A stretch of 64,000 nucleotides of DNA from Candidatus Kryptoniota bacterium (GTDB lineage Bacteria; Bacteroidota; Ignavibacteria; Kryptoniales; JAKASW01). Below, in pieces: positions 16,050 to 33,571 of the stretch; the first letter of the stretch is position 1, and every line of letters begins with the position of its first letter. Under the pieces are notes generated by a model that saw nothing but the letters and a program-made list of their open reading frames with translations, ran no database searches and had not been told where the DNA came from. The stretch is from contig DATCTN010000026.1 of the NCBI GenBank assembly GCA_036567965.1, forward strand, positions 248,001-312,000, in the 5' to 3' direction. The translations under genes and the position numbers were made by a program.

Positions 16050-19000
16050 ATGCGCTTTTTCTACGCTTTCGTTGTGATTTTCCTGCTTGGGGGAATCGCA
16101 AACGCACAAACCAATTTGTCCGGGACAATCGGCGTCGACTCTACACTGTCGCTAGCCGGTAGCCCTTACATCGTCACCGGTGATCTGACCGTGAACTCAC
16201 CGCACACTCTAACTGTAGATTCCGGCGTGGTGCTGCGATTCCAATCGAACACCGGACTGTATGTCCTCGGGCATCTTGATGCGCGATGGGCAACATTCAC
16301 TTCCAACAAAGATACTGCGGGGGGGAATCCGCAAAGAGGAGACTGGAGCACTATTCAGCTGGGTAACTATTCATACTCCGCGACTGCAACGATCGACACT
16401 TGCCAGGTAAAATATTCAGGAAGCAATACTTCGAGCCTTTGTTTTTATAATTCGACTGCCAGTGTAGTCGGGACCTCGGTCTCTATTTCAAACAATCAAT
16501 GTATCTACTTGCATCAGGGAAGTCTGAACCTTTTCAATTCCACACTTTCCAATGCGAGTCAGCACGGTCTTGTGATGGACGGTGGAACAGTAACTCATTT
16601 TGTGTCCACGACTGTTTCATTTTGCCAGTGGCCGATTGTATTGAACGGTACATCTTCACTTCAATTCGACGGCGTTAATAGTTTCAACTCCAATACGAAC
16701 AGAGGCGTGTTCCTGAATTTCAATGTATGTGGGACGATGACTCTCGATACGCTTTCAATTCCCTATTTCATAAGTCCGTCGTTTAGCGTCGTTAACGGTT
16801 CAACTTTTACGGTGTCTCCGGGCGTCGTAATGATGAACGGCGACTTCAGTGTCAACGACAGCTCCAGGATCGTTCTCGACCCGGGAAGCATTTTGAAATT
16901 CAACTCCAGTGCCCATTTGTATATCAATGGGGCCCTGATAGCGAACGGTACTCCATCGAACAATATTTATTTCACTTCCTATAAAGATGACAATCAGGGC
17001 GGAGACTCGAATGGCGACGGAACGACGTCAGCTCCCGCAATCAACGACTGGGCGGGAGTGGTCTTCAATTCTCAAAGCATCGACGCACTCTGCGTGATGA
17101 AACATTGCTGGGTATCTTTTGCGGGATATACAGGAATCGGCGGAATCACCATGTACAACGCGAACCCTACGATCGACAGCTGTGAGATGGAAGACAACCA
17201 TTTCGGGGCAATGATCCAGGGAACTTCGAGCCCGGTATTCACTAACAACATAATCGGCTCGAGCGAGCTGGTTCCAATTGCAATGTCATTTTCCGCAAAT
17301 CCGATTTTCAGTAACAATACATTCTCATTTTCAGACAATACGTATGACGCGATCGGAATAATCGGAGAAACGCTTTCGGCCAATGCCGTGTTGCCGATCA
17401 GGTCGGTGACGAGCGTACCGAATGTGACGTATCTACTTCTCGGAACCGTGACAGTTCCCCCCGGTGTGACACTTACCATCAATAAGGGAATCGTCATCAA
17501 GGGGTATTTCTACGATCAGCGAATCGCTGTTCAGGGGAAACTGGTTGCAAATGCTACTCCGGACAGCATGATAGTATTCACCTCGGCGAAGGACGACAAT
17601 TTCGGAAATCCTCACGACACGAATAAGGACGGGAATGCAACTGTGCCGGACGTCGGCAATTGGTCGGGTATTGTCTTCGAGCCCGGGAGCGATCCGACAT
17701 CGACTCTGAACTACTGCAGAATAACCTACGCATCCTTGCAGCCGTATTGGTTATATGTGTACAACGGAACCTATTATTACACAGGTGCAGTCACGATCCT
17801 GAACGCGAGTCCGACAATTTCAAACTGCCAGATCGGAAACGCGCAGTATGGTATCTACGCGGCACTTTCTTCAAATCCGACTATCAGTAACAACTCGCTC
17901 TTCAATACGCAATCGACTCCTATCGCGATGTCTATATCCGCGAACCCGACTTTCACCGGGAATACCTTTACAAACCCGGGATTAGTCGGACTGGGACTGA
18001 TCGGCGAAAATGTGGTCTCCAATGGAATAATAAGCCAGAGGACAGTCGCTGGAATAGCAAACATTACTTACGTCCTTCTCGGCAGCATCACAATAAACTC
18101 CGGGACAAACGTTACCGTCAACGCAGGAGTCGTAATCAAATCGGGAGGTCCCGGCATCTTTGTGAATGGCGGGTTTAAAGCCAAGGGAACGATCGCGGGC
18201 GGACCGGTTACATTCACTTCGTTGAAGGACGATAATGTGGGAAATCCCGGCGACACAAATGGAGACGGTTCTGGTACATCGCCGGCTGCCGGCGATTGGA
18301 GTACGATTCGGTACCAGGGAACGAGCAACGATGCGTTTTGTGTCCTCGACAGTTGCGTGATCAAATTTGGTGGAAACTCATCTAGTACGCCGGACAATTC
18401 TTATTCAGCCGACTGGGGACTTGTAACATTTACAGATGCCGGAGGCACGATTTCAAATTGCACGCTATTCGGATCCTACAATTTCGGATTGCGACTGGAA
18501 AACAGCTCAACTCCGCCGGTAAGCAACGTTTCGATCTCGAGCTGCCGTAGGGATCCCATCGGGATGTCGCTCCTTGCAAATCCCACTTTTACGAACATCA
18601 CCTTCAGCGCAAACGGAAGCAAGGGAGTCCGCATTCTTGAAGGGACGCTCTCGTCAAATGCCACTCTCGATAAGAGAAGCATCGCCGGCATCAGCAACAT
18701 CGCTTATATAGTCGACAATTTAATTGTTGGACCTAGCGCAGTCCTTACATTGAAACCGGGCGTCGTTATCAAATTCTCCATCCAGAGTCTGCCACAAAGC
18801 AGCATCGTCGTGAATGGTGCTCTCGTTGCCGATGCTACAGCGGCTGAACCGATTATCTTCACTTCGTTCAAGGACGACTCCAATGGCGGCGACACGAACA
18901 ATGACGGTAACTCAAGCACCCCGGGACCGGGAGACTGGTACACCGTCGACTTCAATGCATCCGGTCTCGACAGTCTGAACTCGCTCATTCACTGTGATTT

Positions 19001-21572
19001 CAGGTACGGCGGATGGCAGGCATGGTGGGATAGTCACAACTGGGCTGAGTCGAGGATTTTCAATTCGCGAGTAATCGTCGACAGCTGTATTTTTGAAATG
19101 TCGCAGACATCAGGACTTGGAATCTATGGAAGTGCACATCCGTCTGTGACCAACACCCAGTTTACAAATATCACTTATACTCCGGTGACGATGAGCATGT
19201 TCTCTAATCCGTCATTCTCCGGTAATAATGCTCTCAATGTCGGATACATGGCCCTCGGGATAATTCCGGAGACATTTTCCCTGACTGCTGCCGTACCGCT
19301 TAGAGATTTCGGCGGCTATTCGAACATCACATATTATCTGTTCGGTACTTGCACCGTGAACACCGGTACAACTATTACGATTCCGGCGGGCGTAGTGTTC
19401 AAAGGCGGTAACTGGCACGTGAACGGGGCATTATCGGTTCTGGGAAATCAACTGCAGCCTGTGGTGTTCACTGATCCCGCGGATGACGCGTTCGGACATC
19501 CAGGAGATACGAACGGCGACGGATCTGCGACACTCCCGTCTATATATGATTACTCCTCGGTAACCGGAATTCCCGAGGACAACAGCCGTGTAATCTTCTA
19601 CGACGTAAGCGTTGACAGTCTCAGCACAATTCAATATGCATTGTTCCGTTACACAGTCAACGGCATTTATCTCCAGCAAGCTTCGCCAGTCATCAACCAC
19701 TGTACTTTTGAAAGGGACGTTTGGGGTCTGACTCTTAACGGCGTGTCGAGTCCCGCCGTTGATTCGTGCTTGTTCAAAGATCTCAAGTTGACCCCGTTCC
19801 AGACTTCCCTCGTATCGTATCCGAGTTCAACATTGGCCGATTCAATATCAGGCACGACTTTCAAGGCAATCGGGATCCTTGGAGAAACACTTGTACAAGA
19901 TGTCACACTGCCGAAGCGCAATCTTGCAGGGTTCACAAACATTCCGTACTTCCTCCTGAACAATTACACTGTCGCGAGTAACGCTGTCCTCACTATTGCG
20001 CCTGGAGTGATTTTGAAATTCTTCTATGGTGCAGGGATCACGATCAACAAAGGGCTCATGGCGGTGGGAGGTTCAGGACCAGACAGCACTATCGTGTTTA
20101 CAGATTTCAGGGACGATTTTTACGGCGGTGATTCGAACTCCGACAGCACGAACACAAAGCCGACTGATTCCGGCTACTACATATACAATTGGTGGGTCGG
20201 AAAAGGTTGGGGAGGAATTTCGTTTGCCGGTGTATCCCTGGATCCCTTGTGCAAACTGACACACTGCGTCGTTCGGAATGCGGGAATCACCTGGGGTTAT
20301 TACTGGGGAGACTGGTCTGACGGACCTGCTATCACCGTAACTAATGCGAGCCCAACATTCACTTACTGCTCGATGACCGACAATGGTAACGGTATTGTGG
20401 CGCTGGGCGCATCGAACCCGGTGGTCAACTACTGCGACATTTTCAACAATCTGGATTATGGAATCCGGAACATAGATCGTTCATTCAATATCGATGCACG
20501 CTGGAATTGGTGGGGAAACAATACAGGCCCCACGCATAGCGGGAATCCCGGCGGTACAGGTCAGGCTGTTACGGATTCGGTGAACTACCTGCCGTTCCTC
20601 GGAACAGGATCGTCAAATCCGCTTGCCGGCGATGTCAGTCTAAACGGCGCTGTCCAGGCATACGACGCGTCATTGATCCTGAAGTACGTCGTGAATCCAG
20701 GCGTGGACACACTGAACGCACTTCAACAGAGCGTCGCGGATGTCAGCGGCGAGATGGGTATTACAGCGTACGACGCATCTCTCGTACTTCAATACGTCGT
20801 AGGTTTGATCTCTTCTTTCCCGGCCGAAATCGGAAAAAGTATGAAGAAGCCGGACGCACCTACACAGCAGTTCATCGCTCTTCAGAAAGTATCGGGCGCA
20901 AATCTTTCAGTGGATGACGCAACAGCAAACAGGGGAGACTCACTCGTGGTTGCGCTGAAACTGGAGAATGTCGGCGGTATAGGCTCTATGCAGATCGCTC
21001 TCAGGTATGATCCGGCAATATTGGCTTTCAAGAAAGCTAGTGCGGCAGAAGTCACGGCGGGCTATTCCATCGCTTCAGGTACCGACGAGAAGAAGGGTGT
21101 CGTCAACCTCGCGCTTGCCGGCTCGACTCTACTGACCGATAACGGCACAGTGGCGTATGTCTCGTTCAGAGTAGCGAAGGACGTTCGCGGGATAATTAAT
21201 TCAACTCTCGATGTGGTCAAGTTCCTCGCGAACGAAACTGACATGACAGATCGCGCGGCATCGGGAAAGATCAAGATCGTTGGAAAGCCGACCACTTATT
21301 CTCTCGACCAGAATTATCCTAATCCGTTCAATCCGTCGACGACAATCGGGTACCAGATCCCCGACGATAATTCTCACGTCAGGATGGTAATCTACTCGAT
21401 TACAGGTCAAGTGGTGAAGGTACTTGTGGACCAGAACCAGGATGCAGGAATTCATAAGATAGTTTGGGATGGCACGAACGAACGCGGGCTTAGAGCAGGC
21501 AGCGGTATCTATTTCTGCCGCATCCAGGCCGGCAGTTTCATCCAAACCAAAAAACTGGTCCTCTTGAGGTAA
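16050..21572 (+). CDS. T9SS-secreted beta-helix protein with dockerin and cohesin modules
   Basis: An 1840-residue exported protein. The signal peptide is residues 1-19 (cleavage at ANA-Q) after ATG 16050, chosen for the AAAGGAG upstream and the signal sequence; the frame is open 29 codons further upstream. Residues about 33-1510 contain seven degenerate repeats of about 200-225 aa with parallel beta-helix (pectate-lyase-like) rungs. Each repeat except the first has an acidic DxNxDG-like loop followed by a W- or Y-containing strand. Residues about 1527-1590 form a dockerin-like pair ([20 protein letters not shown] and a second [15 protein letters not shown]). About 1617-1745 is a cohesin-like domain, and about 1750-1840 is the T9SS sorting domain with [10 protein letters not shown]. 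It is probably on the cell surface; ligand unknown. No catalytic site is recognised. Confidence 0.85.
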
Positions 21573-21578
21573 TCACCC

Positions 21579-21629
21579 CGGCAGAGTTTAAGGATGCGCG
21601 GACGCCGGTCCGCGTGTCCTGATCTGCCG
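21579..21629 (+). promoter_or_regulatory. Large composite hairpin between the two T9SS genes
   Basis: Outer stem CGGCAGA (21579-21585) with TCTGCCG (21623-21629), a GGA/TCC inner segment (21592-21594 with 21617-21619), then CGCGGAC (21597-21603) with GTCCGCG (21608-21614) around a GCCG loop. There is no U-tract, so an intrinsic terminator is unlikely; mRNA processing, stability or attenuation between the genes is plausible. It ends 17 bases before the next ATG. Confidence 0.65.
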
Positions 21630-21646
21630 ACAACTACAGGTGGCTT

Positions 21647-24600
21647 ATGAATAAATTTTACAGGTACCTCTTGATCGTTCTCCTCCTGCCCGCTTATTCG
21701 GACCTCCTTGCGGGCACGATAGGACTTTCGATACACGATACAACTGTCACGCAGGGAAGATTCGTCGATATACCGATATACGTCGACACGACTCTCAGCG
21801 GCCAGAATGTCACTTCATTTCAACTTCAGCTCAATTACTACTCGAGCGGCCTCGCATTCGACAGCGTAATTACCAGCGGGACCCTTGTCCAGTCTCTGGG
21901 GTCGGTGACGTTTAACGGAAGAACTGCGGGGCAGGTCAGCATTGCCTTCGCAGGGACCAATCCGTTAAGCGGAATGGGGAAATTGATCTACGTTCGTTTC
22001 AGGACAATAGCTGTCTCATACTCTACGATAACATTTTCCGATTCGGCACATGATTTCCTGAACGAGGGAGCACCTCAGGTTGAACTTCAAAACGGCAATA
22101 TCAATATAATCGCACCACCTTCTATCAATATTTCTCCGACGTCCGCTCTGCTCACGGCGGGGGACAGCCTTCAATTCTGGGCGTCGAACGGAACACCGCC
22201 GTATCACTGGTCTTTAACTAACTCAGCGATCGCGACCTTTGATTCAAGCGATATGCTGCATGTGCATCAGGCCGGCTTCACACGTGTCATCGGCTCCGAT
22301 GCAGGAGGAATCGTCGACACAATTCCGGGCACGATCGAGATTCGCGCGTTCGAACTTAGCCTACACGATACCTCGGTGATGCAGGGACAGACGTTTGACT
22401 TGCCGGTTTACACGTCAGACATCGGAGGATTGAATGCCACCGCGGGATCTTTCAGAATGACGTTCAATCAGAATCTGCTGACTCCGATCGGTGTTGTACA
22501 GGCCGGCTCGTTATTATCGTCTTATAGTCCGCCCGCCTTCAACAAGAACGTGGCCGGGCAGATGGATATCTCTTTCGCCGGAGCGACCAGTCTAGCTGGC
22601 AGAGGAGTCTTGCTTTTTGTTCGCTTCAAGGTTTCTGCGGTCAATAACGGTGGATCTTCCCTCGGCCTCACTAATATTCTTTTGAATGAAAGCACTTCGG
22701 GAAACGGGCAGGGAGCGAACTTCAATACCATCTTGCTGGCGAATCTAAATATTCTACCGTCATCCGGCGCGTTAATCGACGGTGATACCCTGCGCTTTCA
22801 AGCATCAGGCGGCACTCCTCCATACAGCTGGACGACCAGCGACACCAATGTCGCCCGCATCGACAACTCAGGACTCCTGACTGCCCTCAGAGGAGGATCG
22901 GTCGACGTCAAGGCAATTGACACTTACGGAGGGAGCGGTACGGCCGCAGGGATACAGATCTATGACAGCCGGATATCTGTGCACGATACCGTTGCTGTCG
23001 CGGGAACAGAAGTCGACGTGCCTGTGTATCTTTCTTCTGTCCGGCCAGGTAATTCATTCTCGAGCTTGCAGACAACTATCGTATACGATACATCGTTCAT
23101 GCATGCATTGGGCGTGATCAACGCGGGAACTCTGACAGACGGCTGGTCGTGCGTGCCAAGCATATCCGGTAACCATATAACGTTTGCAGCTGCCGGTACC
23201 TCCAATATTAATTCTGCCGGAATCCTGATTGTGATTCGGTTCGCAATTCCATCGACTGCCGCCCTGGGAACCAACTCCCAAGTCCAGTTCCAGCAGTTTA
23301 TGCTCAACGAGGGAAATCCCCGTCCTCTCACGGTAAACGGAACAGTGACAGCTTCGGTTACTCCTCCTTCCGTTCCCTCTCTCCTCAGCCCAGCGAATCT
23401 CACAGCAGGCGCTGCGGTCAGCCTGACCCTTTCGTGGTACAGCGCCGCCGGAGCCACCTCCTATACGCTCCAGGTTTCCACGGATTCCACATTTGCATCG
23501 ACAGTTGTCAATCAGACCGGATTGACCGGGACATCAGATCCGATCAGCGGGTTGACCAATTCCACGAAGTACTTTTGGAGAGTATCAGGAGTTAACAGTG
23601 GCGGGCCGAGCGCTTGGTCCGTGGTCTGGAACTTCACGACAATCATTGCGGCACCTTCAGCGCCAGGTCTGAGCGCGCCGGTGAATGGTGCCACCGGTGT
23701 TTCCAGAACACCTTCACTATCCTGGAACATCTCATCAGGAGCGGTGACATATAGACTCCAGGTCTCGATGGATCCTTCATTTGCTTCTACCGCCGTAGAC
23801 ACGTCCGGACTCACCTCACTCACGTTCTCAATCGGAAGCGAAATCCTGGCGAATGGTCAAACCTATCATTGGCGTGTCAGTGCGACTAATGGCGGTGGCA
23901 CTGGCGACTGGTCAGCGGTATGGAGTTTTGTCACTATTGTCGCGGCTCCGCCCAAGCCAGCTCCCGTTGCTCCGACGGACTTAACATTCGGCGTTCGAAT
24001 TGATCCTACTTTCTCATGGAGTCCGTGCATGGGAGCAACGGGCTACTCGCTCGTCGTGGCGACCGATACCGGCTTCTCGGTGATTGTGTACGACACGACA
24101 GGGTTGACCTCAACCTCCGATACCGTCCATGCATTATCGTACCATGAAAGATATTACTGGCACGCCAGGGCGGAGAATGCAGGTGGGTCTAGCCCGTGGT
24201 CCGATATGTGGACGTTTGTCACTGTCCTTGCGCCGCCAGTCCTTGGCTCACCACCCGATCTTGCAGAGGATGTTGGAGATACTGTCGAGTTCACCTGGGC
24301 CGCCGTCTCTGGAGGTCAATCCTACAGGCTTGTCGTCGCATTCGATACTGCATTTGTCCATACCGCGTTTGATACGGCTTCTGTCCAGGACACTTCGATC
24401 CGGCATATCGGTTTCTTGCGCGATACTGTCTATTATTGGAAATTAGTCGCGAGCGACTCGTTCAGCACGGGAGTCTGGTCCGAAGTGCGAAGATTCAGGA
24501 CTTCGATCGGATTGGGAATCAATGGCGACACTAAAATCCCGAAGACATTTTCCTTGTTCCAGAACTATCCTAATCCTTTCAATCCTGCAACCCAGATCCA

Positions 24601-24805
24601 GTTTGATGTGCCGAAACGATCGACAGTGACACTTACTCTCCATGATATACTTGGAAGACAGGTCTGCACGATCTGTCAGGGAATGCTCGATGCCGGGAGA
24701 CACACAGTCAATTTTGACGGGTCTCACCTTTCGAGCGGGATTTATTTCCTCCGCATGCAGGCGGGCAATTTCACCGGAGTCAGGAAATTGGTCATCATGA
24801 AATGA
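21647..24805 (+). CDS. T9SS-secreted protein with three cohesin-like and four Fn3 domains
   Basis: A 1052-residue exported protein. Signal peptide residues 1-22 (cleavage after SDLLA). Three cohesin-like beta-sandwich domains follow: about 25-160, 235-360 and 441-570, each beginning with the pattern (L/S)xxHDTxVxxGxxxDxPVY. Two Ig-like segments with the same motif TPPYxW lie between them. Four Fn3-like repeats (about 575-955) each have a YxLQVSTDSxF-type strand followed by W-containing strands. The T9SS sorting domain with [10 protein letters not shown] is at about 965-1052. The protein looks like a surface scaffold, and the dockerin-like module of the preceding gene makes a cohesin-dockerin partnership plausible. 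No enzyme domain is visible. Confidence 0.85.
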   Translation: MNKFYRYLLIVLLLPAYSDLLAGTIGLSIHDTTVTQGRFVDIPIYVDTTLSGQNVTSFQLQLNYYSSGLAFDSVITSGTLVQSLGSVTFNGRTAGQVSIAFAGTNPLSGMGKLIYVRFRTIAVSYSTITFSDSAHDFLNEGAPQVELQNGNINIIAPPSINISPTSALLTAGDSLQFWASNGTPPYHWSLTNSAIATFDSSDMLHVHQAGFTRVIGSDAGGIVDTIPGTIEIRAFELSLHDTSVMQGQTFDLPVYTSDIGGLNATAGSFRMTFNQNLLTPIGVVQAGSLLSSYSPPAFNKNVAGQMDISFAGATSLAGRGVLLFVRFKVSAVNNGGSSLGLTNILLNESTSGNGQGANFNTILLANLNILPSSGALIDGDTLRFQASGGTPPYSWTTSDTNVARIDNSGLLTALRGGSVDVKAIDTYGGSGTAAGIQIYDSRISVHDTVAVAGTEVDVPVYLSSVRPGNSFSSLQTTIVYDTSFMHALGVINAGTLTDGWSCVPSISGNHITFAAAGTSNINSAGILIVIRFAIPSTAALGTNSQVQFQQFMLNEGNPRPLTVNGTVTASVTPPSVPSLLSPANLTAGAAVSLTLSWYSAAGATSYTLQVSTDSTFASTVVNQTGLTGTSDPISGLTNSTKYFWRVSGVNSGGPSAWSVVWNFTTIIAAPSAPGLSAPVNGATGVSRTPSLSWNISSGAVTYRLQVSMDPSFASTAVDTSGLTSLTFSIGSEILANGQTYHWRVSATNGGGTGDWSAVWSFVTIVAAPPKPAPVAPTDLTFGVRIDPTFSWSPCMGATGYSLVVATDTGFSVIVYDTTGLTSTSDTVHALSYHERYYWHARAENAGGSSPWSDMWTFVTVLAPPVLGSPPDLAEDVGDTVEFTWAAVSGGQSYRLVVAFDTAFVHTAFDTASVQDTSIRHIGFLRDTVYYWKLVASDSFSTGVWSEVRRFRTSIGLGINGDTKIPKTFSLFQNYPNPFNPATQIQFDVPKRSTVTLTLHDILGRQVCTICQGMLDAGRHTVNFDGSHLSSGIYFLRMQAGNFTGVRKLVIMK

Positions 24806-25039: not shown

Positions 25040-25163
25040 TTCTTCGCACTGCGAGTCCTTGATTTCCCTCGATTCCTGAACGGCAAGCCAATTCGACGTT
25101 CAGCGGGGAGATGTCAGGGCGCAATTTTACATAGAGAACGTGGGTACAATGAAGGAGGGAATC

Positions 25164-27908
25164 ATGTCGCGCGTGACGACTTACCTATCACTCACCATTG
25201 CGGTGCTGATCGTCTTCTTTGCCGCCTCGGCTAATTCTCAGGACCTGACACCACAGCTCAATCAGCTCAGGACTACTCTGAAATCCAATCCCGAAGATAT
25301 CGGAACCCGACTTCAACTTATAAATCTTCTTTTCCAAAACGGCAACTACCGCGAAGTTATCGATGTCTCTCAAAAGGCCATTAAGATTCTCCCGACGAGA
25401 TCCTCATTGTATTTTTACACAGGTGAGAGCTACAGGCGACTCGGGAATGCCGATTCGGCTTACCTGATACTTAAGAAAGGGTACGAAATAAAACCGTACA
25501 ACGACTTGAGTGAGTCGTACGCAATGGTCCTTATCAGTTTGAAAAAAAGTGAAGAGGCTGCTCCGATCATAAGGACACTGGCTCAGGAGAAGCCGGGTTT
25601 TGTGGACAAACATCTCTCCGCGGGATCGCTCGCGTACAAGTCCGGTAAATTGGATGTCGCATCTGATGAACTCCTAGTTGTCTATCTTGTCGATAAGACG
25701 AAGCTCAGTAAAGATCTATCATTGTTTGTAGAATTTAATCAGAATTTTGAGTCATACGTTCTGAGCAACAATACGGATGCTGCGGTCCGCGCATTCACGA
25801 CGACACTTAAGGCTAGATTCGGAGAGACCTACGACTTCACAAGCCTTGGTGAATCGTTCAGATGTTTGCTGGATCAAAAGCAGGTTGAAGCAGCGAGGGA
25901 TTTGTTCGAGGAATTCAACAGGATACCGGCGGCAGATTTTTCTCAATTGACAATCGACAAGAAGTTTCTCGCCATATCACACAACCTTATGCTTCAGTGT
26001 CCGAAGCTCAAGGATTTGGGCAAATCGGTCATACGAGGTATCATCAGGTCAAGGTTCGGTTTGCCGGACGCGGATGTAGCTCAACTTGTCGGCTTATATG
26101 ATTTCATGATTGCTCAGGGAGCGACCCAGCTTGCGGCGGAACTTTCGAATAAGATTCTCGATACGACATCCGCTGTCAAGGAACCTTATCTCCGAATTGC
26201 TGAAATATTCATGCAGTCAAACAGAATTCAGGATGCTATGCAATCCCTGGGGAGGTTTTTTATCAGGGAAAAGATCGATGAACTTGGATACACAAGCGAT
26301 TTCGTGAATTCATTTCAGGTACTGCTGAATCAAAAACGAGTAGACGATGCCGAATGGATCCTGCTACATCTGAGCGATGTGAATACTCAGGACCTTGCCG
26401 CGACGTATGTTATCCTCGGTGAGTCATATACGAGAATGGGAAGCGGGGAAAAGGCGATCGTAATCCTGAACAAGGTGTTGGCTATCGATCCGTCAAATCA
26501 TGTTGCGAGCCTGAAGCTGGGTGAAGCATATTACGCCGCAGGGAGATATGACGAGATCATCAGGTCGCTTTCAGAGACTACCGATCTGGAAGGATTACGT
26601 TATCTCGCGCTGGCGTATGAAAAGAAGGTGATGCTTACCGAATCGAACAAAGCCTGGCAGAGTGTACTCGTGTCGGCCCAGGACACCGCGCAATCTAACG
26701 AGGCAAAGGATCACATCAGGCAGAACACGATCATACTCATGAGTCCCCAGTACCAGCAGTTGAGAGCTCAGGCGGCAATGTCTACGGCACCGCTTCAGCT
26801 CGCCGTTACAAAACCGGCAAGTGCCGTCGAGGATAACACGCGCGGCATCGCTCTCGTAACCTCCGATAATACGACTGTAACATTCGAAGGGTTTGCCGGT
26901 TCGGATTCACCAATAGACACAATAATGGTTAATAACATGATGGTACACGGCGTCACGCCGACACCGGAGGAAATATCGGGCTCGCACATCGCGAAACCTT
27001 ACGTCGTTAAATTTTCAACCGACATTTCGCTTCCCCCAGCTCAGAAGAGTGAAGTGGAGGTCATGACGACCGATAGTCTCGGAAACAGGATAACGAAGAA
27101 GTATGTCGTGGACGTCCAGGCCCAGCGAGCATCCACGGGCGCGCTCCCGACGGTACGCGCGTTCGTCGTCGGAATTTCCCAGTATGCCGATAAATCGCTT
27201 AGCTTGAAATACGCGGCGGATGACGCCAACCTGTTTTATCAGAGAATGAGAGACCCGACCACCATCGGAATTCCGGCTTCGAACATTACCCTACTCACCA
27301 ATAGTTCTGCCACGAGGGAAGGGATCCTCGACGGACTCGAATCGGTATTCAAGACCTCATTCGAGAACGATGTTGTGATGATATATCTCGCGATGCACGG
27401 GGTAACCGACGAAGGGCTCCTTTATTTCATTCCGTATGATGCGAAGGTTTCGAAACTGAGAACGAGCGCGATCTCAGGTCTCGATTTCGATTATCTCGTT
27501 AAGACCAAAGGTGCTGGGAGAAAAGTGATCATGTTCGTGGACGCTTGCCACGCCGGTGCTGCTGCGTCGTCGCTTGTCTTCGGAGGATCACGCGGCGTTG
27601 AGGCGCTTCCCGCTCTCCTCGCCGAGATGGCAAAGTCACAGCCCGGCTTGAGTGTGTTCTCCGCTTCCGACGCGGGCCAGGTCTCCAGAGAAGGAGACGA
27701 ATGGGGAGGACACGGCGTCTTCACGTACTACTTACTGAAGGCGATGACAACTCCGTCAGCAAACACAAATGCGGATCAATTCATTCAACTCAGAGAGATC
27801 GTTGATTATGTCAGGGACAAAGTCACTTCGGACACCAAGGGCAAGCAAACACCCGTTTTCAAATGCTTCGGGTGCGATCCGAATATGCCCCTGTTTTATT
27901 CTAAATAG
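25164..27908 (+). CDS. Exported TPR protein with C-terminal caspase-like (C14) protease domain
   Basis: A 914-residue protein with a signal peptide (about residues 1-25, ANS-Q). Start is ATG at 25164, since GAAGGAGGG lies directly before it; a GTG eight codons upstream is the alternative. Residues about 27-560 are TPR-like helical repeats, for example LIFQNGNYREVIDVSQKAI-type and GESYTRMGSGEKAIVILNK. A linker with beta structure follows. The caspase domain (about 662-914) begins TVRAFVVGISQYAD. The catalytic His is in YLAMHG (His745) and the catalytic Cys is in FVDACHAG (Cys795), both intact. It should be a periplasmic or surface cysteine protease of the C14/metacaspase-like clan. Substrate and activation signal are unknown; the TPRs probably bind partners. 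It is the first gene of the envelope cassette. Confidence 0.85.
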   Translation: MSRVTTYLSLTIAVLIVFFAASANSQDLTPQLNQLRTTLKSNPEDIGTRLQLINLLFQNGNYREVIDVSQKAIKILPTRSSLYFYTGESYRRLGNADSAYLILKKGYEIKPYNDLSESYAMVLISLKKSEEAAPIIRTLAQEKPGFVDKHLSAGSLAYKSGKLDVASDELLVVYLVDKTKLSKDLSLFVEFNQNFESYVLSNNTDAAVRAFTTTLKARFGETYDFTSLGESFRCLLDQKQVEAARDLFEEFNRIPAADFSQLTIDKKFLAISHNLMLQCPKLKDLGKSVIRGIIRSRFGLPDADVAQLVGLYDFMIAQGATQLAAELSNKILDTTSAVKEPYLRIAEIFMQSNRIQDAMQSLGRFFIREKIDELGYTSDFVNSFQVLLNQKRVDDAEWILLHLSDVNTQDLAATYVILGESYTRMGSGEKAIVILNKVLAIDPSNHVASLKLGEAYYAAGRYDEIIRSLSETTDLEGLRYLALAYEKKVMLTESNKAWQSVLVSAQDTAQSNEAKDHIRQNTIILMSPQYQQLRAQAAMSTAPLQLAVTKPASAVEDNTRGIALVTSDNTTVTFEGFAGSDSPIDTIMVNNMMVHGVTPTPEEISGSHIAKPYVVKFSTDISLPPAQKSEVEVMTTDSLGNRITKKYVVDVQAQRASTGALPTVRAFVVGISQYADKSLSLKYAADDANLFYQRMRDPTTIGIPASNITLLTNSSATREGILDGLESVFKTSFENDVVMIYLAMHGVTDEGLLYFIPYDAKVSKLRTSAISGLDFDYLVKTKGAGRKVIMFVDACHAGAAASSLVFGGSRGVEALPALLAEMAKSQPGLSVFSASDAGQVSREGDEWGGHGVFTYYLLKAMTTPSANTNADQFIQLREIVDYVRDKVTSDTKGKQTPVFKCFGCDPNMPLFYSK

Positions 27909-28140
27909 TTAAACGCCGCTTCGGTATTCTATTTCGGAAAAATACGTGGCGTGATGGGCCAGGGCCTTGGACGGCTGCCAAGATTGCCTGGTGGAAAGAT
28001 GTTCTGCGAAAAAAGGGTGTGCTGGAAAATAGAAGGAGTATGCTGGATGCTTCGGGTGTCAGGAGCAATGTCTATTGAATTCTATAATTCCAGTGTGCCT
28101 CTGTCGTCTGCCTGATCATCGAACTATCTGGATGGGTCTT
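27909..28140. promoter_or_regulatory. Leader region before the DUF4384 gene with composite hairpin
   Basis: Nested arms ACGCC (27913-27917) with GGCGT (27948-27952) and GTATT (27924-27928) with AATAC (27941-27945). A TATAAT at 28083-28088 has no good -35 partner, so a promoter here is uncertain. No gene seen. Confidence 0.35.
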
Positions 28141-30117
28141 ATGAGTAAATCGATTCTCACGTTGGGCTTAATCTTCCTCCTGTCGTGGACGGATTCGTTT
28201 TCCCAACCGATTTGGGTCAAATCAAAATCCAGTCCCAACTATCCTGATCGCCTCTATATTCTTGGAGTTGGTTTCGCAAATAAAACAAAAGACAGAGCCG
28301 CGGATAAACAGAAGGCCTACGATGCTGCATTTGCAGATATCGCAAAACAGATTAAGTCTACAATAGAGTCCCAGTCTTCGCTCCAGACATACGAAGTATT
28401 GTCCGAAAAGAAGAACGCTCTTGAAGAAACGACATCGGCGGAGATTAAAGTCTCAACGGAAGTAAAGTTGGGCGGACTCCGTGTGGTCGATACTTATTAT
28501 GATGATGACAACGAGCTCGAATGGGCACTGGCAGTGCTGGAGAGGACAACCGCAGGAGATCAGCTGAGGACAACCATCGTCAGTTACCTCGCTGCCTACA
28601 ATAAGAGCATTGAAAATTCAACGGCGTTCGTTTCATCGGGTAATCTTTATCATGCGATTCTCAATCTCACAGACGCGCTGAAGAGTCAAGTACTGTACAA
28701 TAACCTTCTCCCCGTGTACAATTTCATAACAGGACCGCTCTCAACATCAGACAGTTCTTACGTGATGCCGGGGACACTTCTTGTCAGTGACACGAAGGCT
28801 GCGGCGCAATCGTTTCTGTCGTCTATTAAACTGGACAAGACAGAAGGAGACACGCAATCCGTGTCGGTCAAATCGGAACCGCGACCGCTGATAGTAACTG
28901 CATCGTGTTCCATGTCGGGGCACAAGATTCCTGTTTCGGGTTTGAAGATCAAGTTTGAATTCCGTAGAGGGAGAGGAACCCTCACAGATGAATCGATCAC
29001 TGACGCCTCGGGGAAAGCGAGGTGCGACATATTCACCCTTCTGCCCTCCAGAAGCAACGTATATTCAATTTCCGCGACACAAGATTTGTCAGAATTCAAA
29101 ATCGAGGGTGAACAGTATACTTCAGGTGAATTTCAGGACTGGAACAATTTTCTTGATAAGAACCAAACCGGGATCCTGTTCAATCTCATGAGATCGAGCG
29201 CGTCTTTGGAAGACAGGCTGGCTGAAGCTGTGCTTGAGTTAAGCACTAGAATTCGCGATACGAGCGCGAGCGTCGCAATTGCGCGGATATCGTTTCAGGA
29301 CAAACTCCCAGGACCGATAGCTGAGTTTCTGAGACAGAAAATCGAATCGGTGATCCAATCGTCGACGGAACTTTCCGTCATCAGCGAGGAAGCGATCAGG
29401 AATTCTCAGATTCAACTTTCCGATGGGGGCTCGCTCCAGAGCCTGTCGCAACCGGACTTTGCTTCGCAAGCCGCAGGCGCAAGGTACTCAATCGTTGGCA
29501 GTTACTGGAAGGAAGGGGAATCCCTAAATCTCAGTCTGAAGGTGATCGATGTAGAGACGCACCTTTTGACAGGGTCCGCATCCATCGACGTGCCGCTCTC
29601 ATGGCTTCCCCCTGTCCCACTCGCGCCGGAAAACTATAATCCCGTCGCGGACGACAAGATCATCGGTAACGAGAAAAAGGGTGAAGGGCTCAAGATTGAT
29701 GTGTGGGTCGACCGGCTCGACGGTGTATATCATGACGGCGACACTATGAGCATATACATCAGGTCGACCGGTGATTGCTACGCGCAACTCGTCTACAATG
29801 ATGCCGGCGGAAACTCGGTACTCGTGTTCCCGAACAAGGTAAGCTGGAACAGCCGCGTTAAAGGCGGCGTGACTTACAGAATCCCCGGAACATTTGTTGT
29901 CCAGGCGCCATTCGGGAGGGAAATCTTGAAGGTGTACGCTTCGGATGTCAGGGTCCCTGTCGCACAAGGCAAGGAAATAGGAAACTTGATCGTCCTGAAT
30001 TCCGCAAATGATTTCCAAAGCGCTACGAGAACCGCCGGACTTTCAGGAGAGAATTATTCGGAGAATTCTGTCGTCATTACGACAATGCCGAAGAGAGATC
30101 GTTCATTTGGAAATTGA
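28141..30117 (+). CDS. Exported LPP20/CsgG-like/DUF4384 protein
   Basis: A 658-residue exported protein; I start it at ATG 28141, where a signal peptide (MSKSILTLGLIFLLSW, cut after FSQ) follows. Residues about 28-170 have an LPP20-type domain (LYILGVGFANKTKD, then AYDAAFADIAKQI). About 375-500 resembles the CsgG/FlgO fold (IARISFQDKLPGPIAEFLRQ, then GARYSIVGSYWKEGESLNLSLKVI). About 515-620 is a DUF4384-type domain (VDRLDGVYHDGDTMSIYIRST, NDAGGNSVLVFPN). DUF4384 is often found beside or fused to caspases in other bacteria, which supports a link to the preceding gene. Role unknown; a periplasmic or outer-membrane sensor or scaffold is my guess. The next gene follows after 21 bases. Confidence 0.75.
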   Translation: MSKSILTLGLIFLLSWTDSFSQPIWVKSKSSPNYPDRLYILGVGFANKTKDRAADKQKAYDAAFADIAKQIKSTIESQSSLQTYEVLSEKKNALEETTSAEIKVSTEVKLGGLRVVDTYYDDDNELEWALAVLERTTAGDQLRTTIVSYLAAYNKSIENSTAFVSSGNLYHAILNLTDALKSQVLYNNLLPVYNFITGPLSTSDSSYVMPGTLLVSDTKAAAQSFLSSIKLDKTEGDTQSVSVKSEPRPLIVTASCSMSGHKIPVSGLKIKFEFRRGRGTLTDESITDASGKARCDIFTLLPSRSNVYSISATQDLSEFKIEGEQYTSGEFQDWNNFLDKNQTGILFNLMRSSASLEDRLAEAVLELSTRIRDTSASVAIARISFQDKLPGPIAEFLRQKIESVIQSSTELSVISEEAIRNSQIQLSDGGSLQSLSQPDFASQAAGARYSIVGSYWKEGESLNLSLKVIDVETHLLTGSASIDVPLSWLPPVPLAPENYNPVADDKIIGNEKKGEGLKIDVWVDRLDGVYHDGDTMSIYIRSTGDCYAQLVYNDAGGNSVLVFPNKVSWNSRVKGGVTYRIPGTFVVQAPFGREILKVYASDVRVPVAQGKEIGNLIVLNSANDFQSATRTAGLSGENYSENSVVITTMPKRDRSFGN

Positions 30118-30138
30118 GCCATTGACAAATTTCGTTGG

Positions 30139-32316
30139 ATGCGTGACGTGACGAAGCGTGATCTTATTAAGAAATTTTCTGAATCAAAGACAGTCCTCTC
30201 CTTGCTGGTAAGTGCCACTGGCGCGATTTTAATATGCATCGTCATCGCGGCTAATGCTGTCTCTACTATCGACAGACCGGTGCTCGATTTTCTGTTCCGG
30301 CATGCCTCCCACCCGGAGCGCGCCGATACGTCGGTCGTGATTGCGACCATCGATCAGAAGAGTCTCGCTTTCTTCGATTCTCAGCATGTGGGCTGGCCCT
30401 GGCCCAGGGAATTCTATTCGATCGTGCTCGACTATTTCAGGGCTGGTGGAGTCAAAGCGGTTGCATTTGATATGGATTTTTCACAAAGGGACATGGACCG
30501 GCTGAATGTCGATGCGCGTGAATCGGACAGCATTTTCGCAGAGTCTATCGGAAAATGTGGAAACGTAGTTCTGACAACCGTTCTGGTTGAGGGCGATTCG
30601 AATGGCACGGGGAGCGGAACTCCGCTGGATCGTTTCTACATGTCCGGGAAATTCGACAAGATGCGAATTCCTTTATTCAATTCGTGTATAGTGCCGGTCG
30701 AAGATTTCGCACGAAACGCGAGAATGCTGGGTGTATCCAACTATCGACCCGATGTGGACGGGATGACGAGGAGAATTCCCCTTTTGTTCGGATACCGCGG
30801 CGCCCTCCTCCCGCAGCTTGCATTTGCGACCTTTGCTGTCGGACGGGAAATGTCGCGCGACAGCCTCGCATCATTTGCGGCGACGATACCAGTGGACAAC
30901 ACCGGGCACTTTCTTATAAACTGGTACGGGAGGGGCGGTCCCGATGGCGTCTTCAAATATTACTCTATCAGCGCGCTGATAGTATCTGCCGCTCAATTGG
31001 TCGAGGGTCGTCAACCCGAAGTCTCACCGTCTGCATTCAGGGATAAATATGTCATTGTTGGGGGAAGCGCGATAGGCCTGATGGATTTCAAATCGACTCC
31101 ATTCACGATACTGGAACCCTATCCTGGTATGGAAATCCACGCTACCATACTAAGTAATCTGCTTCGAATGGATTACATGCGTGAGGCGCCTCCGTGGGTC
31201 TCGTATTCGATTTCGATCTGCTTTGTTTTCCTTATCTCGATCCTGTTCTTTAGAATTGGCAAAGTTTTCACAATGACGGCGGTGGTCCTGGCTGTCGCCA
31301 CCGCTTACATGATTTTGATCTGGTTCTCATTTTACTCATTGCGGTTATTGTTGCCGGTAGGAGCTCCGGAACTCGCCATCGTTCTCGGGTTCACGTTTTC
31401 CGGTGCAGTTAGTTTTGTGACCGAGGGAAGGCGCCGAAGAGAGCTGAGGCGCGTTCTCAATCGCTACCTCAGCCCGCGCGTGGTCGACGAGATCCTTGTC
31501 GATCCGGACGATTTCGAGCTCGGTGGGAGAGAAATGGATGCCACTGTGTTCTTTTCAGACATCAGGAATTTTACGGGCTTGTCCGAAAAGATGTCGCCTA
31601 AGGAACTCGTGTCCAACTTGAATGAGTATTTCACTATCGCGAGCGAGATAATTCTCGAACATGACGCTATGCTCGATAAATATATCGGCGATGCGATCAT
31701 GGCAATTTTCGGCGCACCCCTCCAGTCCGACAAGCACGCTGTCAATGCCTGCCTTGCCGCTATTCAAGCTCAGGACATTCTCGGAAAGCACTATTCCGTA
31801 AACGATCATGGGAACCGCACAGCATTTGAGACCAGAATCGGACTCAACAGCGGCAAGATGGTAATAGGAAATATCGGATCGCTGAAACGCCTCGACTATA
31901 CCGCGATCGGGGACAGTGTCAACCTTGCTTCAAGACTCGAGGGAGTCAACAAGGAATTCGGAACGCAGATCATCATAAGTGAGTCCACATACGAACTCGC
32001 CAGGGATGAAGTTGAGGCCAGGGAATTGGATTTCTTGAGAGTCAAAGGAAAACAATTGCCCATCAGGATCTACGAATTGCTCGGGCGCAAAGACGAGATA
32101 TCTCCTGAAAAGAGAGATCTTTTGGAGCAATTTGTCGAAGGTCTCAACAGCTACAGGTCGCGGAAATGGAAGAAGGCCCAGAGAATTTTTCTTTCCATCC
32201 TCGAAAAAGACCCGTCCGACACTCCTTCACGAACTTACCTGTCGAGATGCCAACTCCTCGCGAAGGTCGGCGTGCCGGATGACTGGGATGGCATTTACGT
32301 TATGACAACCAAATAG
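30139..32316 (+). CDS. CHASE2-domain adenylate cyclase
   Basis: A 725-residue class III cyclase that would make cAMP. TM1 is about 19-41, followed by a periplasmic CHASE2 sensor (about 45-330; TSVVIATIDQKSLAFFD and GVKAVAFDMDF are typical). Three helices follow at about 353-425, and the catalytic domain starts near 466. The metal-binding aspartates are Asp474 in FFSDIRNFT and Asp518 in DKYIGDAIMAIFG. The adenine-selecting pair is Lys514 and Asp592 (TAIGDSVNLASR), and the transition-state residues are Asn595 and Arg599, so adenylate rather than guanylate specificity is expected. A short TPR-like tail (about 640-720) ends the protein. It lies 21 bases after the DUF4384 gene and 19 before the protease gene: an operon. 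Confidence 0.9.
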   Translation: MRDVTKRDLIKKFSESKTVLSLLVSATGAILICIVIAANAVSTIDRPVLDFLFRHASHPERADTSVVIATIDQKSLAFFDSQHVGWPWPREFYSIVLDYFRAGGVKAVAFDMDFSQRDMDRLNVDARESDSIFAESIGKCGNVVLTTVLVEGDSNGTGSGTPLDRFYMSGKFDKMRIPLFNSCIVPVEDFARNARMLGVSNYRPDVDGMTRRIPLLFGYRGALLPQLAFATFAVGREMSRDSLASFAATIPVDNTGHFLINWYGRGGPDGVFKYYSISALIVSAAQLVEGRQPEVSPSAFRDKYVIVGGSAIGLMDFKSTPFTILEPYPGMEIHATILSNLLRMDYMREAPPWVSYSISICFVFLISILFFRIGKVFTMTAVVLAVATAYMILIWFSFYSLRLLLPVGAPELAIVLGFTFSGAVSFVTEGRRRRELRRVLNRYLSPRVVDEILVDPDDFELGGREMDATVFFSDIRNFTGLSEKMSPKELVSNLNEYFTIASEIILEHDAMLDKYIGDAIMAIFGAPLQSDKHAVNACLAAIQAQDILGKHYSVNDHGNRTAFETRIGLNSGKMVIGNIGSLKRLDYTAIGDSVNLASRLEGVNKEFGTQIIISESTYELARDEVEARELDFLRVKGKQLPIRIYELLGRKDEISPEKRDLLEQFVEGLNSYRSRKWKKAQRIFLSILEKDPSDTPSRTYLSRCQLLAKVGVPDDWDGIYVMTTK

Positions 32317-32335
32317 TATGCTAAGGAGAATTCGG

Positions 32336-33571
32336 ATGCGAAAGATCGTGCTGATTTTACTCGCCTCTTTCTTCGCCCTCGCTCTTCAGGTCGCAACTCA
32401 TGTCTTTGTAAAAAGAGATAACGCCTACGTTCGTGAAGGGCCCGGCTCATTTTATCCTCTGGTAGTCGTCCTTCAACATGGGAACGGCGTTGACAGGATC
32501 GATGCGTCGGGTAACTGGTACAAGGTCAGATTGAAGGATCAGCGCACCGGCTGGCTGGCAGCGAATTGCCTGGCGGACAAAGAGCCGCAGGGCGAGGTTA
32601 TCGAAAATGTCAGTAAGAGTTGGAGCTCCGCGCGGGCGTCTATGACTGGATTAGCGGCGGCAATAAAAGGATTTGCTTCGAAGTACGGAAAAGGCGAACC
32701 GGGTAAGATAGACGACGTGTTCAGGTGCGCCGTGAAGGGCTTTACGTCCGACGACGTGGCAGAGTTTAATGCTCCCATCGCATCCTTCAACTCGAAGAAC
32801 AGGGGAAGGATGCAGATAGACGATCTTGATCTTGAGCAACCCGATTATGATCCTTCGTTTGAAGAACAGGGCGTGGGCGTCGGAATAGCGGCACGATTGA
32901 TATCGAAAGGGGTTGTCGCCGATCCTCAACTTACACGTTATGTCAACTTGATTGCAGCGACAATTGCACAGAATTCGAAAATATACGATTGGGATTTCAC
33001 TGTGTTCGTGCTCGATGATTCGTCCATAAACGGTTTCGCGTGTCCTGGCGGCTATGTGTTCATCACGTATGGAGCGTTGAAGGCTTGTGACGATGAATCG
33101 ATGTTAGCTGCAATAATCGCCCACGAGATGGCGCATGTAATAAGACGCCACGGGCTCCAGGAAATGACTAAGAGACTTGTGGACATCAAAGCCGATGTGG
33201 CATTTGGCGAGCTTGAGGAAGAGACTCAGGAAAATTCTGAGGTCGACCAGGAAATGGAAACCATGTGCGAAAATAGTTACGAGATAGTCGTACACAAACG
33301 GCTTCTCGATTATGAGCTCGAGGCGGATAAAATATCCGCCATTCTGTGCGCGAATGCGGGATACGATCCCAATGGCATCGTACGAATGGATGCAAAAGTC
33401 GCGGAGCAGCTCCGCACCGATCCCGATATTTTCGGTGATGATTTTTCTATGCAAAAGACTCCCAGTGAACGCGTCGATCCAATCACGAGTTTTGTAGGAA
33501 AGAAATTTTCTCAATCGAACCCCGGGGTCCGCATGAAGGAAAGATTCGATTCACAGGTCTCCGGAAAATAA
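32336..33571 (+). CDS. Exported SH3-domain M48-family metalloprotease
   Basis: A 411-residue protein. The start is ATG 32336, with AAGGAG (32323-32328) seven bases upstream; an in-frame ATG at 32318 precedes that site. Signal peptide about residues 1-22. Residues about 25-88 are a bacterial SH3 domain (DNAYVREGPGSFYPLVVVLQ, GNWYKVRL, TGWLAANCL). The M48 zinc site is AHEMAHVIRRHG (His263, Glu264, His267), with the third ligand Glu327 in YELEADK. There are no membrane helices besides the signal, so it is periplasmic, unlike HtpX, and closer to BepA/LoiP-like quality-control peptidases. The SH3 domain could bind peptidoglycan. Coupled to the cyclase by a 19-base gap. Confidence 0.88.
   Translation: MRKIVLILLASFFALALQVATHVFVKRDNAYVREGPGSFYPLVVVLQHGNGVDRIDASGNWYKVRLKDQRTGWLAANCLADKEPQGEVIENVSKSWSSARASMTGLAAAIKGFASKYGKGEPGKIDDVFRCAVKGFTSDDVAEFNAPIASFNSKNRGRMQIDDLDLEQPDYDPSFEEQGVGVGIAARLISKGVVADPQLTRYVNLIAATIAQNSKIYDWDFTVFVLDDSSINGFACPGGYVFITYGALKACDDESMLAAIIAHEMAHVIRRHGLQEMTKRLVDIKADVAFGELEEETQENSEVDQEMETMCENSYEIVVHKRLLDYELEADKISAILCANAGYDPNGIVRMDAKVAEQLRTDPDIFGDDFSMQKTPSERVDPITSFVGKKFSQSNPGVRMKERFDSQVSGK

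Follow-up and report, generated by a model that had tools for sequence, protein, structure and literature searches.

Adjacent T9SS-type dockerin and three-cohesin genes of Candidatus Kryptoniota as a candidate surface-assembly cassette

The cohesin-dockerin pair, a plug-and-socket system, was discovered in cellulose degraders. Their detection in non-cellulolytic microbes raised the question, open ever since, of what the two modules do outside cellulosomes. Among archaea, non-cellulosomal cohesin-dockerin proteins have been described in Archaeoglobus fulgidus and in ANME, and pairs of them are reported to bind (PMC9012536, PMC5244752). For Candidatus Stygibacter (Cloacimonadota), T9SS-linked dockerin proteins and a scaffoldin with a C-terminal T9SS-type attachment domain have been proposed, the dockerin enzymes belonging to GH18, GH57, S8 and C25 and the single scaffoldin (3,755 aa) carrying CBMs (PMC8542988). 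The combination of dockerin, cohesin and T9SS has a precedent in that phylum.

Here, we describe two adjacent genes, P1 and P2, in a window of 64,000 nucleotides (the whole stretch of DNA analysed) from a Candidatus Kryptoniota bacterium. Like the clostridial cellulosomes (for example C. thermocellum CipA and A. cellulolyticus ScaB/ScaC), the pair combines a multi-cohesin scaffold with a protein bearing a double-EF dockerin, and the modules are homologous. Unlike in the cellulosomes, export is of the Gram-negative T9SS type, the cargo is a beta-helix rod with no recognised glycoside hydrolase, the dedicated scaffold gene adjoins the cargo gene, and the cargo has a cohesin and an anchor of its own. 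Pfam recognised no CBM in either protein, P2 consisting of cohesin, Ig/Fn3-type and T9SS domains only, and no plant cell wall-degrading dockerin enzyme; by analogy, P1/P2 is best described as working like a cohesin-dockerin scaffold, not as a cellulosome. It differs from the Stygibacter system in that the cassette has two genes, its rod does not look like an enzyme and its cohesins number exactly three. As in the archaeal proteins, cohesin and dockerin share one polypeptide and multi-cohesin proteins occur outside cellulose degraders; however, the archaeal systems have no T9SS and their architectures are reported to vary between close relatives, whereas the P1/P2 cassette is fixed across phyla. 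Finally, an Ig-like-fold module adjoins the P1 dockerin and may pack against it, as in the X-module-dockerin tandems (X-DocII of CipA, XDoc of R. flavefaciens), the difference being that the companion in P1 is itself a cohesin and lies C-terminal to the dockerin. No report of the fixed rod and three-cohesin cassette was found in the open-access literature searched.

Modules of P1 and P2

The two genes lie on the same (+) strand, P2 beginning 74 bases beyond the end of P1 (Table 1). The ATG from which the original prediction had read P1 is the likely start, since it is preceded by AAAGGAG and opens a signal peptide that is clear on inspection. The same prediction gave the first protein a dockerin-like double repeat, its own cohesin-like domain and a T9SS domain, and the second three cohesin-like domains, four Fn3 domains and a T9SS domain; searches with Pfam and TIGR04183 placed the modules of P1 where they had been drawn, and those of P2 are likewise present, one Fn3 repeat by eye. 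To this are now added the beta-helix of P1, the Ig-like and Big_2 spacers of P2 and two more dockerin-cohesin clusters in the genome.

Table 1. Features of the P1 and P2 genes, in positions of the window
Feature	Position	Strand	Description	Basis
P1	16050..21572	+	1840 aa, T9SS-exported beta-helix, dockerin and cohesin (predicted)	ORF, start context, Pfam
P1 signal peptide	16050..16109	+	20 residues, cleavage site estimated	sequence
P1 right-handed beta-helix region	16110..20582	+		PF13229, loop positions, AlphaFold of middle 681 residues
P1 dockerin	20625..20798	+	type I-like, two EF-hand loops (12 residues each)	PF00404; profile match 4uyq_B
P1 own (companion) cohesin	20901..21278	+	C-terminal to dockerin	PF00963; predicted fold, Z 17.9 to 4uyq_A
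P1 T9SS type A sorting domain	21315..21560	+		TIGR04183, 45.8 bits
P2	21647..24805	+	1052 aa, three-cohesin T9SS scaffold (predicted)	ORF, Pfam
P2 cohesin 1	21725..22102	+	class c1	87 bits, profile built in this analysis; position class
Ig-like spacer, P2 cohesins 1/2	22088..22321	+		weak Pfam match below cut-off; spacing conserved in 67 loci
P2 cohesin 2	22355..22696	+	class c2	PF00963; position class
Big_2 spacer, P2 cohesins 2/3	22754..22942	+		PF02368
P2 cohesin 3	22973..23347	+	class c3	PF00963; position class
P2 Fn3-type repeats	23363..24502	+	four repeats	Pfam passes three; fourth by eye, residues ~863-952
P2 T9SS type A sorting domain	24566..24796	+		TIGR04183, 44.5 bits

Most of P1 is a beta-helix of about 1,500 aa (Pfam PF13229, E 4e-38), within which loops of the DDxxGxxDTNxDG type recur six times. 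The central 681 residues are modelled by AlphaFold as a continuous solenoid (pLDDT 92.5) with generic beta-helix similarity to known structures (best Z 14.8 over 168 of the 681 residues). Foldseek gave no match under E 1e-3 for this solenoid, and Pfam assigned the cargo to no GH or PL family. The length of P1 is almost constant across the loci described below (median 1809 aa, quartiles 1778-1848), which suggests a structural rod, and adhesion, a surface coat, polysaccharide processing or an enzyme are all possible roles.

Profiles built from the P1 tails and P2 cores of relatives were compared with solved modules. The P1 dockerin matched the A. cellulolyticus ScaB dockerin (4uyq_B, E 5.6e-12), the C. 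cellulolyticum cohesin 1g1k was matched with E 8.5e-11, and the non-cellulosomal cohesin 2xdh of A. fulgidus was among the best matches for both P1 (3.6e-10) and P2 (2.6e-9). PF00963 is found by Pfam in three stretches of P2 (E 1.2e-23 for the region), and the own cohesin of P1, with E 3.7e-14 in the genome search, passes the cut-off when the search is confined to the C-terminal part. In the model of the P1 tail the dockerin part forms three helices, and the cohesin finds its best structure match in 4uyq_A (rmsd 1.9 over 129 residues), cohesins or cohesin-like modules filling the top 50 matches listed. Judged by sequence profile, and for the P1 cohesin also by predicted fold, the modules are true cohesins and a true dockerin, and not the unrelated folds for which the original prediction had allowed. 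Its description of the dockerin loops as only partly canonical is correct, the departure being SLNG in loop 1, which in the P1 family almost always reads DVSLNG..QA[YF]DA. SLNG is almost invariant across the family and is a family signature rather than decay.

The T9SS machinery is encoded in the host genome (SprA 937 bits, PorU 918 bits), and P1 and P2 both have a TIGR04183 match over the cut-off and a signal peptide recognised by eye. The genome encodes at least 150 T9SS-tailed proteins and three dockerin genes, and the dockerin proteins are therefore a small subset of the T9SS cargo. Scans for promoters and terminators performed no better than on shuffled sequence. Directly downstream of P2, positions 25140-33571 hold genes for a TPR and caspase-like peptidase protein, an LPP20/DUF4384 lipoprotein, a CHASE2 adenylate cyclase and an SH3-M48 peptidase, a run that resembles a cluster for envelope stress or signalling.

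Gene order in the host genome and across phyla

The host genome (4.1 Mb) contains three dockerin and ten cohesin matches, all of them in three clusters, and in 3/3 a multi-cohesin gene directly follows the dockerin gene. The cargo of the other two dockerin proteins is the same beta-helix as in P1 and an S8 protease, respectively. The second cluster, P1'-P2'-P3' (L014:1-7411 and L016:6873-9444), is near-paralogous to the window pair; part of it lies on contig C25 and part on C1, the ends of the two contigs sharing an overlap of exactly 59 bases. In P3', a single c1-class cohesin is combined with Fn3-like repeats and a T9SS tail, and genes resembling it, with a single c1 cohesin, are present at the Cloacimonadota loci L064 and L066 and also at L090. 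In the third cluster (L015:7527-15219), a subtilase-dockerin gene overlaps a multi-cohesin T9SS gene, the dockerin and cohesins being of another type and the spacers HYDIN-like Ig domains.

Across 61 related genomes, a cohesin frame lies directly downstream on the same strand for 21 of 45 dockerin frames and directly upstream for 0; the half or so with no downstream cohesin gene belong mostly to other families. In addition, contigs of named genomes were scanned with the P1 dockerin-cohesin tail only, and the best 80 of 263 relatives were kept, a sample that favours close relatives. A cohesin gene follows downstream in 76 of these 80 loci. Because the domain E-values of P1 and P2 are far below search noise and this gene order recurs so widely, the observation is not due to chance. 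Where the downstream gene is complete, exactly three cohesins lie in one gene in 62/67 loci, with a nearly constant spacing (cohesin-86-cohesin-94-cohesin); the other five have an extra single-cohesin gene before (three) or after (one) the three-cohesin gene, or the three cohesins split over two genes (one). For a surface protein, P1 shows unusually high conservation (329 columns at >=90% in 60 full-length rows), and P1 distances correlate with those of P2 (r 0.70; 0 of 2000 permutations).

The anchoring of P2 is more varied. A clear T9SS tail was found in 39 of the 67 complete cases, and several others end in a shorter tail of the YPNP type. In a further group, mainly Bacteroidales, a C-terminal dockerin-like double EF module replaces the T9SS tail (L075, L081, L085, L101, L102, L110 and L119), which suggests that some P2 proteins are recruited instead of being anchored, and hints at a second docking tier.

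The pair spans about ten phyla, that is, Bacteroidota, Ignavibacteriota, Chlorobiota, Balneolota, Kryptoniota, Cloacimonadota, Calditrichota, Fidelibacterota (Neomarinimicrobiota), Zixibacteria and Fibrobacterota. Candidatus Kryptoniota Ww171 is among the nearest named relatives, and Carboxylicivirga linearis FB218 (locus L105) is a named strain carrying the cassette. The distribution is patchy, a near full-length P1 relative being present in about 20 of the 294 genomes of the host class, and plasmid records gave one weak match. Phyla are intermingled in the P1 tree; given the uncertainties of MAG binning and the presence of paralogues, this is not firm evidence of transfer. A search for conserved neighbours across the loci revealed no functional context, the only frequent family being a sensor-kinase-like protein (14 loci, at no fixed position or strand). 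Two unusual arrangements were also noted. At L030:4690-9519 (relative G010), a single frame of 1609 aa alternates as Coh-Doc-Coh-Coh-Doc-Coh, possibly a self-assembling chain; at L051:7137-16239 (relative G039), there are five tandem dockerin-T9SS genes, and no cohesin was detected in the stretch of this relative that was analysed.

Partners of the P1 dockerin

The original prediction proposed that the two proteins form a surface scaffold and its ligand, and this is favoured because the modules are real by profile, both proteins have T9SS tails in a genome that encodes SprA and PorU, the gene order is kept across phyla and dockerins covary with cohesins. On balance, we think it probable that P1 and P2 make up one surface-assembly cassette, a T9SS rod with a dockerin and a three-cohesin scaffold accepting P1-type dockerins. 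P1 would be a beta-helical rod of fixed length that T9SS exports and anchors, its base bearing the dockerin and companion cohesin, and P2 a T9SS-exported scaffold, each cohesin of which would accept one P1-type dockerin; up to three rods would then be clustered per scaffold on the outer surface. We infer that the P1 dockerin binds the P2 cohesins, with a stoichiometry of three to one, and that the main part played by the companion cohesin is to pack against the dockerin of its own chain, roughly like an X-module.

The cohesins cluster by position across phyla into near-pure groups (own 77/77, c1 64/65, c2 67/69, c3 52/52). At loci with other cargo, most cohesins encoded downstream score with the scaffold classes, several weak scores being ambiguous. 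Within the P1 family, an attempt to separate cis from trans pairing by residue covariation failed, since the dockerin is nearly invariant; dockerin distances correlate to a similar degree with each of the four cohesins (partial r 0.29-0.41). Between dockerin families, dockerin similarity tracks that of the downstream cohesins (r 0.77, 15 representatives, confounded by shared ancestry). In the type I complex, the cohesin interface lies on strands 8-3-6-5. The covariation peaks at stretches assigned to strand 3, strand 6 and loop 8, and also at columns 44-52, which lie outside the expected interface; strand 6 and loop 8 alone gave r 0.79 (0 of 5000 permutations, 15 representatives). Dockerins of the AY/AF type go with [IV][AS]xAG cohesins, and those whose second helix has W or F go with AWAS/AWAN cohesins. 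In L029, the one W-type protein tabulated with a post-dockerin cohesin, the own cohesin keeps IAMAG and the trans cohesins are of the W type. With shared ancestry as a confounder, the family-level covariation and L029 favour trans pairing.

The best surviving alternative is that the P1 dockerin docks onto its own cohesin within the chain as an intramolecular lock at the base of the rod, the P2 cohesins taking other dockerins or only competing during assembly. AlphaFold (56-row alignment) predicts the dockerin and own cohesin of P1 to pack as one rigid two-domain unit (pLDDT 93.5, pTM 0.89), which is an alternative to the pairing originally proposed; if the packing involved the canonical face, the dockerin might already be engaged within its own chain. 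It is also consistent with such a lock that the own cohesin keeps the IAxAG and NE features expected on that face, and that the cohesin after the dockerin scores best with the own class in the majority of proteins carrying another cargo, several weak scores again being ambiguous. However, of the four cohesins the own one shows the lowest conservation (mean identity 0.27), against a nearly invariant dockerin, and in L029 the trans cohesins follow the dockerin type but the own cohesin does not. Furthermore, the dockerin proteins of L019, L033, L040 and L047 have no detected own cohesin and still a downstream cohesin gene. We regard an in-chain lock as unlikely.

More doubtful still is a linear array of rods, in which the dockerin of one P1 would sit on the own cohesin of the next and P2 would act as a cap, branch point or nucleator. 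In almost all homologues the two modules do occupy neighbouring positions at the same end of P1, as head-to-tail joining needs, but two things speak against free polymerisation, namely that dockerin and own cohesin are predicted to form a rigid unit in cis and that P1 almost always has a T9SS anchor (75/76 loci), and we consider such an array improbable. Least probable of all, and in our view very unlikely, is an adhesin pair with no specific pairing, the modules being general beta-sandwich and calcium-binding units kept by co-transfer: both proteins have adhesin-like parts (beta-helix, Fn3, Big_2) and the distribution is patchy, but the dockerin recognition positions are invariant, exactly three position-specific cohesins are kept across phyla, and dockerins covary with cohesins.

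Implications

It counts against the preferred reading, in which P2 receives P1-type dockerins, that both partners carry their own anchor, so that P1 would stay on the cell even if it did not dock; for the same reason, pairing could also work between neighbouring cells. A wider claim, that the cassette is a widespread non-cellulosomal surface machine of FCB bacteria, with three fixed-length rods on a three-socket scaffold and a cohesin used as companion or latch of the dockerin, is tentative, and we would put it forward only as a possibility. The role of cohesins and dockerins outside cellulosomes becomes directly testable with a compact cassette of two genes that occurs in about ten named phyla and in a named strain, and the cassette adds a new set of cohesins and dockerins in which the number of sockets is defined.
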